Part shown: in pieces, positions 15,853 through 26,301 of the stretch
Position numbering within the stretch: position 1 is the stretch's first letter
Layout: each line of letters starts with the position of its first letter
IMG/VR virus record: IMGVR_UViG_3300009414_000053
Span: 1 to 28,553 of that record
DNA: 28,553 nucleotides
From: a virus
Direction: 5' to 3' (one strand)
Notes under the pieces: generated by a model
Seen by the model: the letters and a program-made list of their open reading frames with translations, nothing else
What the model was told of the DNA's origin: nothing
The model's database searches: none
Made by a program: the position numbers and the translations under genes

Positions 15853-16734
15853 ATGGCAAACGACAACACAGTTTCTTTGAAGATTGAAGATATTAAGATC
15901 AACGGTGACACGCAACCGCGAGTTTCCATTGATGACTTGGCAGTAGCCGACTATGCATATGCATATGAGTCGGGTGAGAATATGCCCCCTGTTGTCGTTT
16001 TCTTTGATGGGGTTAATCATTGGCTGGCTGACGGATTCCATCGTTGGCATGCGGCACGAAGGGCTGTTCTTACAGATCTCCCAGCAACAATAAAGGATGG
16101 GACACGCGAAGATGCCCAGTGGTATGCGATTTCCGCTAACCAAACACATGGCTTGCGCCGGTCAAATAAAGACAAACGCAGATCCGTCACAATGGCTCTT
16201 GGGATTCATCCCGATTGGAGTGATTACCAGATAGGTGAGCATGTCGGCGTATCGCATGAGATGGTCAGAATGGTTCGTGCTTCACTAGCAGAGTTTGCTA
16301 GTGAAACCGTCCGTAAGACACGCGATGGCAGGGAGATCGATACCACGAATATTGGTGGTTCTCCCAGTGAGGTATTTGTCAAGAATCCTCCGATGCCTAC
16401 TGATACTGTTGACGCAATCGGCATGTTAGTGCCAGAACATCTGGTTAATAAGTGGAATGAACTGAATAGAGAAGTAAATGAGATGATCGATCACGCGAAT
16501 GCGTTACAGGCATTTGTTGCTCATCTTGGTGATCGCATGGATGGGCTGGGTGCAGATGTTTCAATTAGTGCGATGCGTGCTGATGTGATCAACATTGTTT
16601 CTGCAATCCAATTGACCGCCACGCCCCATGCAATCTGTTGCTACTGCGGTGGTGATGGTTGCGAGACATGTACTAATCGTGGCTGGCTATCCAAGCACAT
16701 GTTTAACTGTGTGCCTGAAGAATTGAAGATATGA
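15853..16734 (+). CDS. ParB-like DNA-binding protein with C-terminal zinc-ribbon-like motif
   Basis: A 293-residue protein; the start chosen has AAAGGAAG at 15838-15845, whereas a GTG at 15793 would need 20 implausible extra residues. Residues ~10-110 form a ParB/sulfiredoxin-type N-terminal domain: D-T-Q-P-R, Y-A-Y-A-Y-E-S-G-E, L-A-D-G-F-H-R-W-H-A-A. A helix-turn-helix follows around 120-160 (Q-I-G-E-H-V-G-V-S-H-E-M-V). The C-terminus carries C-C-Y-C-G-G-D-G-C-E-T-C, a probable zinc-binding knuckle not found in plasmid ParB. Phage ParB-like proteins act as transcription regulators or DNA-binding nucleases. The ATGA overlap with the methyltransferase suggests joint function. Confidence 0.78.
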   Translation: MANDNTVSLKIEDIKINGDTQPRVSIDDLAVADYAYAYESGENMPPVVVFFDGVNHWLADGFHRWHAARRAVLTDLPATIKDGTREDAQWYAISANQTHGLRRSNKDKRRSVTMALGIHPDWSDYQIGEHVGVSHEMVRMVRASLAEFASETVRKTRDGREIDTTNIGGSPSEVFVKNPPMPTDTVDAIGMLVPEHLVNKWNELNREVNEMIDHANALQAFVAHLGDRMDGLGADVSISAMRADVINIVSAIQLTATPHAICCYCGGDGCETCTNRGWLSKHMFNCVPEELKI

Positions 16735-18020
16735 ATGTGGATATTGCCCCAATCAATCATCTCTCGTTATGCGCAGGATACGGAGGTATCGATCTCGGAC
16801 TCTCAAGAGTTTTGCCAGATGTGCGAACAATCGCTTATGTGGAGATCGAAGCATTCGCAGTCGCAAACTTGGTCGAAAAGGTTGAAAAGGGTTGGCTGGA
16901 TGAAGCACCTGTCTGGACGAACCTTAAAACCTTCGATGCAAAACCCTTTTGCGGAATGGTGGATGTCTTGTCAGGAGGTTTCCCCTGCCAGCCGTTCAGT
17001 CATGCCGGCAACAGAGAGTCTACTGACGATCCTAGACATCTATTTCCCGATGTCGAACGAATCATCGGAGAGTGTAGACCTTCAATCATCTTTCTGGAAA
17101 ATGTCGAAGGAATCATCTCAGCAAAACTCCACGGAGAACCAGACACTTCGGTTCTCAAGCATGTCTTGGAAAGATTGGAAGACTTGGGTTACAAAGCAAC
17201 GGCAGGAATATTCAGTGCGGAAGAAGTCGGCGCACCTCACAGACGAAAGAGGGTCTTTATCTGTGGCATTTCCAACGATGACTGTGAGCGATTCGTTCGG
17301 AAGCAGAAGAGCCACAGCGAAGAAGGATCACTGGAAGAGCAACGATGGAACGACCCTGACAGATGCGGTTCAATCTCCCAGCAACAATCTCCCAGCAGTA
17401 TGGTCAACCCCAAGTGCGTTTCAGCAGGGCGGGACGGCTCAGAAATTCAGGGACAGACAACTGAAGTGGGCAGAGAAATATCACAACCATCCTCCACTGA
17501 ACATTCAAGTGGAGATGGAAGACCAGAACATATCGTGGGCAACACCACAAGTGACGGACTCAACGCGAGACAACCAGATAAGGAAGCCGGACGAACTGAG
17601 CGATGCTGCCAAGCAGGGCGGGTGTCGGAATCTGAGGGAAGATGTTGTCAATTGGGCAACACCGAACACGATGGATCATCTGAGCAGGAGCGAGGAAGCA
17701 CTTCGCAACCAAGCGAAGGGTCAGAGAAAGGGTCGCACGCGACCTTGCAATCTGAGGGAACAGATAGATCCCAAGTCAAACGAGATTTATTCCCAAACAG
17801 ACCAAACCAATCCCAGCAATGGTGGGAATACCCAAGAACAATCGGAGAAGCCGAAGAAACTCAATCCCCTTTGGGTGTGCCAACTGATGCTGGGTTCAGA
17901 GTATCCAGCGACTTGGTTAATGCCACTAGAGTGGATTCGCTCCGACTCGGAGGCAACGGTGTAGTGCCGGCAACCGCAGCAAAAGCATTTATGTATTTGA
18001 TGGATGAATTGACACGATGA
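16731..18020 (+). CDS. C5 cytosine DNA methyltransferase
   Basis: A 429-residue protein that methylates cytosine at C5 using S-adenosylmethionine. Motif I is S-L-C-A-G-Y-G-G-I-D-L-G-L (12-24), motif IV G-G-F-P-C-Q-P-F with catalytic C86, motif VI F-L-E-N-V (121-125), motif VIII A-P-H-R-R-K-R-V-F-I (168-177), and motif X G-N-G-V-V-P with A-A-K-A (408-419). Between about 182 and 375, where the target-recognition domain belongs, the frame is low-complexity, dominated by S, Q, E, G and R, with short repeats such as G-N-T-x-x-D-G. The same DNA is open in the +1 frame (see the overlapping entry). Overlaps both neighbours by ATGA. Target site unknown; it may protect phage DNA from restriction. Confidence 0.9.
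   Translation: MNVDIAPINHLSLCAGYGGIDLGLSRVLPDVRTIAYVEIEAFAVANLVEKVEKGWLDEAPVWTNLKTFDAKPFCGMVDVLSGGFPCQPFSHAGNRESTDDPRHLFPDVERIIGECRPSIIFLENVEGIISAKLHGEPDTSVLKHVLERLEDLGYKATAGIFSAEEVGAPHRRKRVFICGISNDDCERFVRKQKSHSEEGSLEEQRWNDPDRCGSISQQQSPSSMVNPKCVSAGRDGSEIQGQTTEVGREISQPSSTEHSSGDGRPEHIVGNTTSDGLNARQPDKEAGRTERCCQAGRVSESEGRCCQLGNTEHDGSSEQERGSTSQPSEGSEKGSHATLQSEGTDRSQVKRDLFPNRPNQSQQWWEYPRTIGEAEETQSPLGVPTDAGFRVSSDLVNATRVDSLRLGGNGVVPATAAKAFMYLMDELTR
16735..17964 (+). CDS. Overlapping +1-frame protein with W-x-TP-x3-D repeats (possible dual coding)
   Basis: A second open frame of 409 codons lies wholly inside the methyltransferase gene; its ATG is four bases after the methyltransferase ATG, so one ribosome site could serve both. 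From residue 179 (base 17269) it shows repeated units: F-P-T-M-T-V-S-D, W-S-T-P-S-A-F, W-A-T-P-Q-V-T-D, W-A-T-P-N-T-M-D, with ends such as T-L-T-D-A-V, N-L-R-E-D-V and N-L-R-E-Q-I. Near the end is L-N-P-L-W-V-C-Q-L-M. I recognise this pattern (W-P-T-P repeats closed by L-N-P-x-W-V) from phage and bacterial proteins, often annotated as methylase-related or hypothetical. Before residue 179 the frame may only shadow the methyltransferase. Whether it is translated alone, by frameshift, or not at all is unknown. Confidence 0.4.
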   Translation: MWILPQSIISRYAQDTEVSISDSQEFCQMCEQSLMWRSKHSQSQTWSKRLKRVGWMKHLSGRTLKPSMQNPFAEWWMSCQEVSPASRSVMPATESLLTILDIYFPMSNESSESVDLQSSFWKMSKESSQQNSTENQTLRFSSMSWKDWKTWVTKQRQEYSVRKKSAHLTDERGSLSVAFPTMTVSDSFGSRRATAKKDHWKSNDGTTLTDAVQSPSNNLPAVWSTPSAFQQGGTAQKFRDRQLKWAEKYHNHPPLNIQVEMEDQNISWATPQVTDSTRDNQIRKPDELSDAAKQGGCRNLREDVVNWATPNTMDHLSRSEEALRNQAKGQRKGRTRPCNLREQIDPKSNEIYSQTDQTNPSNGGNTQEQSEKPKKLNPLWVCQLMLGSEYPATWLMPLEWIRSDSEATV

Positions 18021-19708: not shown

Positions 19709-20509
19709 ATGGTAGATCATCTTATATTTTACTCTGGTGGCATAGCATCGTGGGCAACCGCAAAGCGTGTAGCAGATATGCATGGCACTGAGAATCTTAG
19801 GATGTTGTTTACAGATACACTCATAGAAGATCCAGACTTATACAGGTTTCTTGATGACTCGGCTGCAAATGTGGGTGGAGAACTAATCAAGATTGCAGAT
19901 GGCAGAACACCTTGGGAAGTGTTTAAGGATGTACGGATGCTTGGTAATAGCCGGCTTGATCCCTGTTCCCGAATTCTAAAACGAGAGATGGCAACAAAGT
20001 GGGTAAAGAAAAATTATCCAGATCCCAAGGATGTTGTCTTATACATTGGTATGGATTGGTCAGAAGAGCATAGATACCTGAGATCAAAAAGGTTTTGGCA
20101 ACCATATGAAGTGCAAGCCACACTGTTAGAAAAGCCATACCTGATGAAAGATGACATGATTGCTTGGCTTAATGATGAGGGTATAGATGAACCACGCTTA
20201 TACAAATTAGGATTTCCACACAACAACTGTGGCGGTGGATGTATTAAAGCTGGTCAAGCACATTTCAAACATTTGCACAAAGCATTGCCTGAAGTTTATG
20301 CAGAGTGGGAAAGAGAAGAAGAAAAGATGAGACAATTCTTAGATAGAGATGTGTCGATTCTGAAAGATCGTAGGGGTGGTACAACTAAAACATTAACCTT
20401 GAAGCAACTGCGTAAGCGTGATGACGATCAGTGTGATCTGTTTGAGTGGGGCGGGTGTGGATGCTTCTCTACTTTTGAAGATGATGAAATGAAAGGTCAA
20501 TCAACATGA
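19709..20509 (+). CDS. PAPS-reductase-like (PP-loop) protein
   Basis: A 266-residue protein with an adenylate-binding PP-loop S-G-G-I-A-S at 9-14 and a following F-T-D-T-L-I-E-D-P-D-L-Y, both typical of the phosphoadenosine-phosphosulfate-reductase-like domain. Cysteines occur as N-N-C-G-G-G-C around 172-177 and G-G-C-G-C near the end, suggesting a metal or Fe-S site. Phage members of this family are not sulfate assimilation enzymes; known relatives activate substrates for nucleic-acid thiolation or other modification. Location after the methyltransferase and helicase supports a DNA or RNA modification role, which remains inference. AAAGG precedes the ATG. Confidence 0.78.
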   Translation: MVDHLIFYSGGIASWATAKRVADMHGTENLRMLFTDTLIEDPDLYRFLDDSAANVGGELIKIADGRTPWEVFKDVRMLGNSRLDPCSRILKREMATKWVKKNYPDPKDVVLYIGMDWSEEHRYLRSKRFWQPYEVQATLLEKPYLMKDDMIAWLNDEGIDEPRLYKLGFPHNNCGGGCIKAGQAHFKHLHKALPEVYAEWEREEEKMRQFLDRDVSILKDRRGGTTKTLTLKQLRKRDDDQCDLFEWGGCGCFSTFEDDEMKGQST

Positions 20510-25803: not shown

Positions 25804-25902
25804 GTCCAAATCTCCCAGCACCTGAATCTCCCAGCACCTGAATCTCCCAGCACCTGAATCTCCCAGCACCTGAATTTCCCAGCAAGTCCAAATCTCCCAG
25901 CA
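25801..25902 (+). repeat. Cluster of six (T/C)TCCCAGCA motifs, mostly at 16-bp spacing
   Basis: TCTCCCAGCA occurs at 25811, 25827, 25843, 25859 and 25893, and TTTCCCAGCA at 25875; the first five copies are spaced 16 bases (unit ATCTCCCAGCACCTGA). A 20-base sequence starting CAAGTCCAAATCTCCC is present at both ends (25801-25820 and 25883-25902). The cluster abuts the -35 box of the leftward promoter, so it is a candidate operator, activator site or replication iteron. Confidence 0.92.
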
Positions 25903-25933: not shown

Positions 25934-25961
25934 ATTCTCGAACCCTAACAGACCCCGAACA
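25934..25961 (+). repeat. 28-bp leader of the 12-bp array, copy A
   Basis: A 28-base sequence (ATTCTCGAACCCTAACAG plus ten more bases) directly before the first 12-bp unit. It matches 25 of 28 bases of the last 28 bases of the window (28526-28553). Confidence 0.85.
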
Positions 25962-25962
25962 G

Positions 25963-26286
25963 TACACGCCACGGTACACGCCACGGTACATGCCACGGTA
26001 CACGCCACGGTACATGCCACGGTACACGCCACGGTACATACCACAGTACATGCCACGGTACACGCCACGGTACAAGCCACGGTATAAGCCACAGTACAAG
26101 CCACGGTACACGCCACGGTACACGCCACAGTACATGCCACGGTACACGCCACGGTACAAGCCACGGTATAAGCCACGGTATAAGCCACGGTATAAGCCAC
26201 AGTACATACCACAGTACATGCCACGGTACACGCCACGGTACAAGCCACGGTATAAGCCACAGTACAAGCCACGGTATAAGCCACGG
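25963..26286 (+). repeat. 27 tandem 12-bp units, consensus TACAYGCCACGG
   Basis: Twenty-seven units follow one another with no insertion or deletion. Variation is confined to a few positions: base 3 (C or T), bases 5-6 (CG, TG, AG or TA) and base 11 (G or A). Each boundary makes GTAC. All six frames are open because the unit lacks stop codons, and one + frame reads four-residue repeats [T/M/K/I]-P-[R/Q]-Y from a TTG at 25927, but no ribosome site precedes it. A DNA-level role (iterons, partition or regulator titration) is favoured over coding. It is not a CRISPR array, since there are no unique spacers. Confidence 0.93.
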
Positions 26287-26301
26287 TACACGGCGCGCAT
26301 T

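Follow-up and report, generated by a model that had tools for sequence, protein, structure and literature searches.

Two described cytosine methyltransferases are divided between two polypeptides, at different places. In M.EcoHK31I, an Escherichia coli enzyme specific for YGGCCR, the large subunit carries motifs I–VIII and X, together with the predicted target-recognition domain, while motif IX stands alone on a smaller polypeptide (PMC3404938); in M.AquI, the α subunit holds catalytic motifs I–VIII and part of the variable region, and the target-recognition part and motif IX are in β (PMC3404938). Here, we consider a phage locus on IMG/VR record IMGVR_UViG_3300009414_000053, a virus record of 28,553 bases (the window). 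As in M.EcoHK31I, its frame 0 has motifs I–VIII and X of a C5-cytosine methyltransferase without motif IX, and motif IX lies in a second frame, a division known in this case from the reading frames. The large gene of M.EcoHK31I reportedly also encodes the small subunit, in another reading frame; here, a +1 open reading frame (ORF; 16735–17964) is nested within the frame-0 ORF (16731–18020), both are open, and the arrangement is kept in relatives. Unlike in M.EcoHK31I, the overlap takes in nearly the whole gene, the starts are 4 nucleotides (nt) apart, and the +1 frame carries a variable target-recognition array. The M.AquI division is matched by related loci in which motif X is in +1; the M.AquI genes themselves are said to overlap only slightly.

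The array has counterparts of its own. C5-methyltransferases of the Bacillus phages SPR, SPbeta, phi3T and rho11 carry several target-recognizing domains in series (Wilke 1988; Gunthert 1987; as listed in PMC8936443). The +1 product resembles them in the layout of its serial modules. These multispecific Bacillus phage enzymes are single chains read in a single frame. So are the mycobacteriophage enzymes Martik gp71, ShiLan gp70 and Saroj gp68, which share with our locus the catalytic family, P-T-P modules and motifs IX and X but differ from it in having all of these in one frame and one polypeptide. In PHROGs, the two products are clustered as separate “DNA methyltransferase” families, phrog_1008 for +1 and phrog_363 for frame 0, whose descriptions draw no link between the frames. 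Very probably, the locus encodes a heterodimeric C5-methyltransferase by overprinting, with an α subunit (motifs I–VIII and X) in frame 0 and a β subunit (target-recognition modules and motif IX) in +1, resembling M.EcoHK31I.

Open frames and relayed selection

A scan of viral contigs with the +1 protein found 73 loci, and in nearly all of them neither frame is interrupted over the length of the gene. Chance was gauged by shuffling the synonymous codons of one frame and counting stops in the other. In the window alone, the +1 frame has no stops over motifs I–VIII against 3.4 expected (frame 0 shuffled; p = 0.007), and frame 0 has none past motif VIII against 12 expected (+1 shuffled), a count reached in 0 of 500 shuffles. 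Across 59 loci, frame-0 shuffling predicts 177 stops in +1 over motifs I–VIII, and none is observed; the third frame of the same loci, a control, has 511 stops vs. 518 expected. Because these 59 loci had been found through +1, the test was rerun on the 80 best matches to the N-terminal half of frame 0, a search that made no use of +1: the +1 frame is stop-free over motifs I–VIII in 71 of these loci, with 9 stops in total against 220 expected. Past motif VIII, with +1 held, frame 0 is stop-free in 50 of the 59 loci (0 stops vs. 377 expected); the other nine have frame-0 stops there, three of them (L018, L020 and L022) near the number expected with no constraint.

Substitutions between pairs of related loci change register along the gene. 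Over motifs I–VIII, they fall at +1 codon positions 1, 2 and 3 in counts of 615, 2098 and 1215, position 2 being the third position of frame 0; past motif VIII, the counts are 2626, 2557 and 4317. In a profile built from 36 non-overlapping locus pairs, substitutions favor frame-0 third positions as far as motif VIII; over the modules and motif IX they favor those of +1 (fractions of 0.37–0.55), and at motif X those of frame 0 once more (0.61); selection is therefore relayed from frame 0 to +1 and back to frame 0. Where one frame functions, the other is largely a passenger yet remains open. One frame constrained and the other neutral, a pattern that the first-pass annotation had set against double coding, is seen in part: frame 0 leads over motifs I–VIII and is little constrained beyond its openness in the module region. 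The frames overlap by true overprinting, the first of the options offered on first pass, which the stop-free frames beyond chance and the relay of constraint support.

Nor is the +1 protein a pure passenger over motifs I–VIII: it is constrained there at scattered sites. Among 57 diverse loci, the third base is far more conserved than the loci's own codon usage predicts in 20 of 33 conserved four-fold codons of these motifs, for instance at A163 (GCG in 56 of 56), P60 (CCT in 56 of 57) and G153 (GGT in 52 of 53). In +1, the over-conserved third bases determine residues, and several of these residues belong to the segment just ahead of the first module.

If frame 0 is a passenger across the modules, why does it stay open? 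In seven viral loci, motif X is in the +1 frame, and in all seven frame 0 has at least six stops past motif VIII; where motif X is in frame 0, this frame is stop-free in 118 of 121 loci. Because frame 0 closes when motif X moves, it is kept open across the modules to join motif X to the catalytic domain. Parsimony on a tree of the catalytic half requires six events for the switch, only some of the separations being strongly supported; one of them places L022 with L060, in which motif X is in frame 0 (support 96.8/100).

The products of the two frames

The frame-0 product matches PF00145 and phrog_363 (Table 1) and has the core of a C5-methyltransferase, namely motifs I, IV (PCQ), VI (ENV), VIII and X and the fold of S-adenosylmethionine (AdoMet)-dependent methyltransferases, and methylation of cytosine C5 in DNA is the predicted activity of the locus. 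Contrary to the first-pass reading, frame 0 does not carry every methyltransferase motif: a motif-IX-like segment sits in +1 instead, and the small domain (target-recognition region and motif IX) would be supplied by that frame, judging by its homology to single-chain enzymes. In an AlphaFold2 model of α built from 44 alignment rows, the predicted local distance difference test score (pLDDT) is mostly ~90 or higher for residues 1–200, mostly below 50 for residues 211–407, and ~95 for the motif X helix. The model aligns with M.HhaI (VIA-align) with Z = 20.1 and a root-mean-square deviation of 3.0 over 202 of 327 residues, both chain ends being covered. Thus modeled, α would be the large domain, including motif X, and no small domain is predicted with confidence.

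The +1 frame, as noted on first pass, is open for 409 codons from an ATG 4 nt after that of frame 0. Its product matches phrog_1008 (“DNA methyltransferase”) and nothing in Pfam or NCBIfam. The repeat units proposed for it exist, starting at +1 residues 179, 223, 268 and 307 (spacings of 44, 45 and 39) and ending, as described, in L-x3-V/I (LTDAV, LNIQV, LREDV and LREQI), with LNPLWVCQLM following at residue 376. Their W/F-x-T-P-x3-D signature holds overall but not in every unit, since the first reads FPTM, lacking the P, and the second WSTPSAFQ, lacking the D. Among 141 loci, 542 modules fall into 130 clusters, the largest of which merges two related types; arrays hold one to nine modules in 104 distinct arrangements, and one module type can occupy any array position from 1 to 6. 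Each module may read its own target site.

Table 1. Features of the overprinted methyltransferase locus (window coordinates)
Feature	Positions	Strand	Observations	Matches
Double start ATGAATGTGG	16731..16740	+	ATGA, in which the frame-0 ATG and the stop of the preceding ParB-like gene overlap; +1 ATG directly after
α ORF, frame 0	16731..18020	+	Predicted C5-cytosine methyltransferase catalytic subunit, motifs I–VIII and X, 429 aa	PF00145 1.6e-39; phrog_363 3.8e-53
β ORF, +1 frame	16735..17964	+	409 codons: N-terminal extension, putative target-recognition modules, motif IX	phrog_1008 9.4e-10; homologues in viral contigs
Motifs I (LSLCAGYGGID), IV (GGFPCQPFS), VI (ENVEG) and VIII (GAPHRRKRVF), frame 0	16761..17258	+	Invariant columns in A5; substitutions peak at frame-0 third positions
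Conserved +1 segment before first module SWKDWKTWVTKQRQEYSVRKKSAHLTDERGSLS	17158..17268	+	Third bases at frame-0 G153 (52/53 T) and A163 (56/56 G) determine +1 residues
β module 1 (FPTMTVSD...LTDAV)	17269..17400	+	Sequence; module survey
Frame-0 passenger segment, S/Q/E/G/R-rich	17280..17786	+	Stop-free, little constrained
β module 2 (WSTPSAFQ...LNIQV)	17401..17535	+	Sequence; module survey
β module 3 (WATPQVTD...LREDVVN)	17536..17652	+	Merged cluster: 101 copies, 89 loci, array positions 1–6
β module 4 (WATPNTMD...LREQI) and linker	17653..17859	+	Shares the merged cluster of module 3
Frame-0 conserved element FPNRPNQSQQWWEYPRTI, consensus WPARPGExQxEWEEPRV	17787..17840	+	Near-invariant P355, Q362, W365, E366 and R369 in A5
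β motif-IX-like segment LNPLWVCQLMLGSEYPATW, consensus KLNPxWVEQLMGLPxGWT	17860..17916	+	Alignment A1; +1 constrained	Equivalent place in single-frame methyltransferases
Frame-0 motif X LRLGGNGVVPATAAKAFM	17940..17993	+	Invariant G-N-G-V-V-P in A5; frame-0 constraint resumes

What the +1 tail does is suggested by enzymes that keep everything in one frame. In Martik gp71, ShiLan gp70, Saroj gp68, FreddyB gp73 and an enzyme of a Mycobacteroides abscessus prophage, motifs I–VIII are followed by PTPxxxD modules, an LxxxFxEWMMGxPxxW segment and a GNGV motif X. While phrog_363 matches the whole of Martik gp71, phrog_1008 matches its C-terminal half (residues 219–407) at 6e-58, and hhalign aligns the last +1 module and LNPxWVEQLMGLP with the C-termini of the single-frame mycobacteriophage enzymes at 7e-8. 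Sequence comparison thus indicates homology between the tail of the +1 product and the half of these C5-methyltransferases that recognizes the target. A bacterial single-frame enzyme, L225, has LNPAWVEQLMGYPDGW, WPARPGEPQYEYEHPRT and LKALGNAVVPQQ in this order; the middle element, between motifs IX and X, is also retained by frame 0 of the dual-frame loci (P355, Q362, W365, E366 and R369 of alignment A5). Taking motif IX of M.HhaI to be LHPRECARVMGYPDSY, the +1 segment sits where motif IX is expected.

Some relatives depart from this layout. In L134, L113, L124, L137 and L139, modules extend beyond motif IX, and L134 has two motif-IX-like segments. The single-frame L249 also has VANTxxx-type filler in its frame, while another frame reads WPTPTARD-type modules; L249 is possibly an intermediate whose modules are in one frame and whose motif IX is in another.

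Start codons and competing explanations

The starts of the +1 frame are conserved. An ATG precedes motif I in +1 in 96 of 105 dereplicated relatives, as ATGTGG in 81; in 48 of those 96, frame-0 starts are only GTG or TTG. A distant, Acinetobacter form of the locus (L184, 2394–2400) has the double start GTGAATG, with a frame-0 GTG and a +1 ATG 4 nt apart; loci related to this form occur in four E. coli genomes, e.g., PT62. Nine loci (L114, L116, L120–L122 and L143–L146) have one +1 stop in the N-terminal part; in all five examined, it is at codon 99 and is followed directly by AAAATG, after which +1 resumes (TAAAAAATG, TAA-AAA-ATG). This looks like termination–reinitiation, by which β would be split in two, a leader and a protein of reduced length. 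Among the Bacillota loci, the +1 ORF does not open until ~90–130 codons before the end of motif VIII, and its internal ATG is often preceded by a purine-rich, Shine–Dalgarno (SD)-like sequence inside α. The bacterial genome loci served only for start-site context; their stop counts are partly circular, the ORFs having been chosen open.

A mechanism can be sketched as follows. Ribosomes would initiate at both start codons, which lie 4 nt from each other; frame 0 would yield α, with the AdoMet-binding and catalytic motifs I–VIII, a disordered passenger, and a motif X that packs back on the catalytic domain; and +1 would yield β, with an N-terminal extension encoded over the α catalytic codons, four target-recognition modules, and motif IX, together forming the small, DNA-reading domain. 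The two would assemble into a complete enzyme, as in M.EcoHK31I; the module array would permit several target sites, as in the multispecific Bacillus phage methyltransferases; and the phage would probably use the enzyme to mark its DNA as a protection from restriction by the host.

Could the same sequence specify one chain? Two programmed frameshifts, from frame 0 to +1 after motif VIII and back before motif X, would produce it, and constraint passes from frame 0 to +1 and back to frame 0 just as the motifs are ordered in single-chain enzymes. We nevertheless hold paired frameshifting to be improbable because it would not need the stop-free passenger segments, neither +1 over motifs I–VIII nor frame 0 over the modules; it also leaves the conserved +1 ATG and ATGTGG, the +1 stop-restart, and the internal SD-ATG of Bacillota unexplained. 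From the earlier proposal of a paired-frameshift target-recognition domain, the target recognition survives, as the modules match the in-frame half of single-chain enzymes, but the frameshifting is disfavored. Just as little credence goes to β being a real +1 protein that acts alone, e.g., as a regulator or DNA-binding protein, and is not half of a methyltransferase: the lack of a Pfam or NCBIfam match would suit such a protein, but its homology to the target-recognition half and motif IX of single-chain enzymes, the ability of motif X to move into +1, and the lack of a small domain in the α model would not. Finally, translation of frame 0 alone, with the +1 ORF as no more than a shadow cast by codon usage or composition, is scarcely credible, even though annotation pipelines often call only frame 0 and composition can yield long ORFs: the many +1 stops predicted by synonymous shuffling of each gene's own codons do not occur, constraint over the modules falls on +1, and frame 0 is the frame that closes once motif X leaves. 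Given many separate records, cultured phages included, we reject both such a shadow and sequencing error.

Several observations count against the overprinted heterodimer. The loci are related, and the stop counts are therefore not independent events. L009 (= L079) and L018 fit neither motif X class: each has its motif X in frame 0, but behind 8 and 17 frame-0 stops, respectively. Synonymous divergence is 0.11 in the methyltransferase vs. 0.32 in flanking genes, a comparison confounded by the lower overall divergence of the methyltransferase; for this reason, the test against own codon usage was used. Motif IX of the window is atypical, with LMLGSEYPATW in place of LMGLPxGW. The +1 tail folded alone gives a mean pLDDT of 60.6 and no structural match in the PDB, and alignment A1 finds only chance matches, and no methyltransferase, among PDB sequences and Pfam.

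The enzymatic kind is known; the variant is striking. Extensive double coding on a single strand is regarded as rare, and many of the cases reported have been doubted. We think it likely that in this locus a near-fully nested, same-strand pair of ~400 codons encodes both subunits of a heterodimer, with overlapping starts, relayed selection, and a hypervariable target-recognition array shuffled in the double-coding region, and that the pair, widespread in phages and in bacterial genome contigs from many phyla, is among the commonest long same-strand overprinted pairs in prokaryotic DNA. Direct tests of dual coding and its persistence can draw on more than 100 related sequences, on relatives that are naturally single-frame, and on loci where one frame has been released in nature; the same material lets the shuffling of DNA target specificity inside a double-coding region be tested.

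Distribution, annotation and neighboring features

At least 346 relatives turned up in a genome scan with the pattern LNPx[WF]VExLM. Among the 80 fetched, 71 are dual-frame, their catalytic motifs lying a single base earlier, although several of these repeat within one genome; two are single-frame. The relatives come from Bacillota, Pseudomonadota, Bacteroidota, Verrucomicrobiota, Spirochaetota, Elusimicrobiota and others. Cultured phages also carry the dual-frame locus. The Acinetobacter +1 form has matches in 161 phage records of GenBank, including mycobacteriophages, whose examined enzymes are single-frame.

In each dual-frame record examined, just one frame is annotated. A single Synechococcus phage locus appears in two records, as a frame-0 “cytosine-specific DNA methyltransferase” in Yong-M2-251 (L159) and as a +1 “hypothetical protein” in Ssp-JY39 (L158), bearing out the first-pass statement that both kinds of sequence are in databases under different names. 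In Acidovorax phage Alfacinha3, +1 is annotated; of two Vibrio phages, one has one frame annotated and the second has the other. The confusion suspected as a widespread annotation error is thus real, but it is a consequence of overprinting and not its explanation. Many phage methyltransferase annotations describe half the enzyme, or the other frame, so that the protein obtained from a single annotated ORF may be inactive when cloned. A literature search that reached few subscription articles and did not include REBASE found no paper on dual-frame phage methyltransferases.

Two genes downstream of the methyltransferase lies a PAPS-reductase-like gene, both in the window (19709–20509; phrog_424, 5.5e-49) and in Mycobacterium phage Martik (gp73; L002). 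Farther on, the window has a 12-base tandem array of 27 copies (25959–26290), with an 84-base higher-order unit repeated four times and open in several frames, and, beside it, a 16-base array of 4.8 copies (25809–25884).
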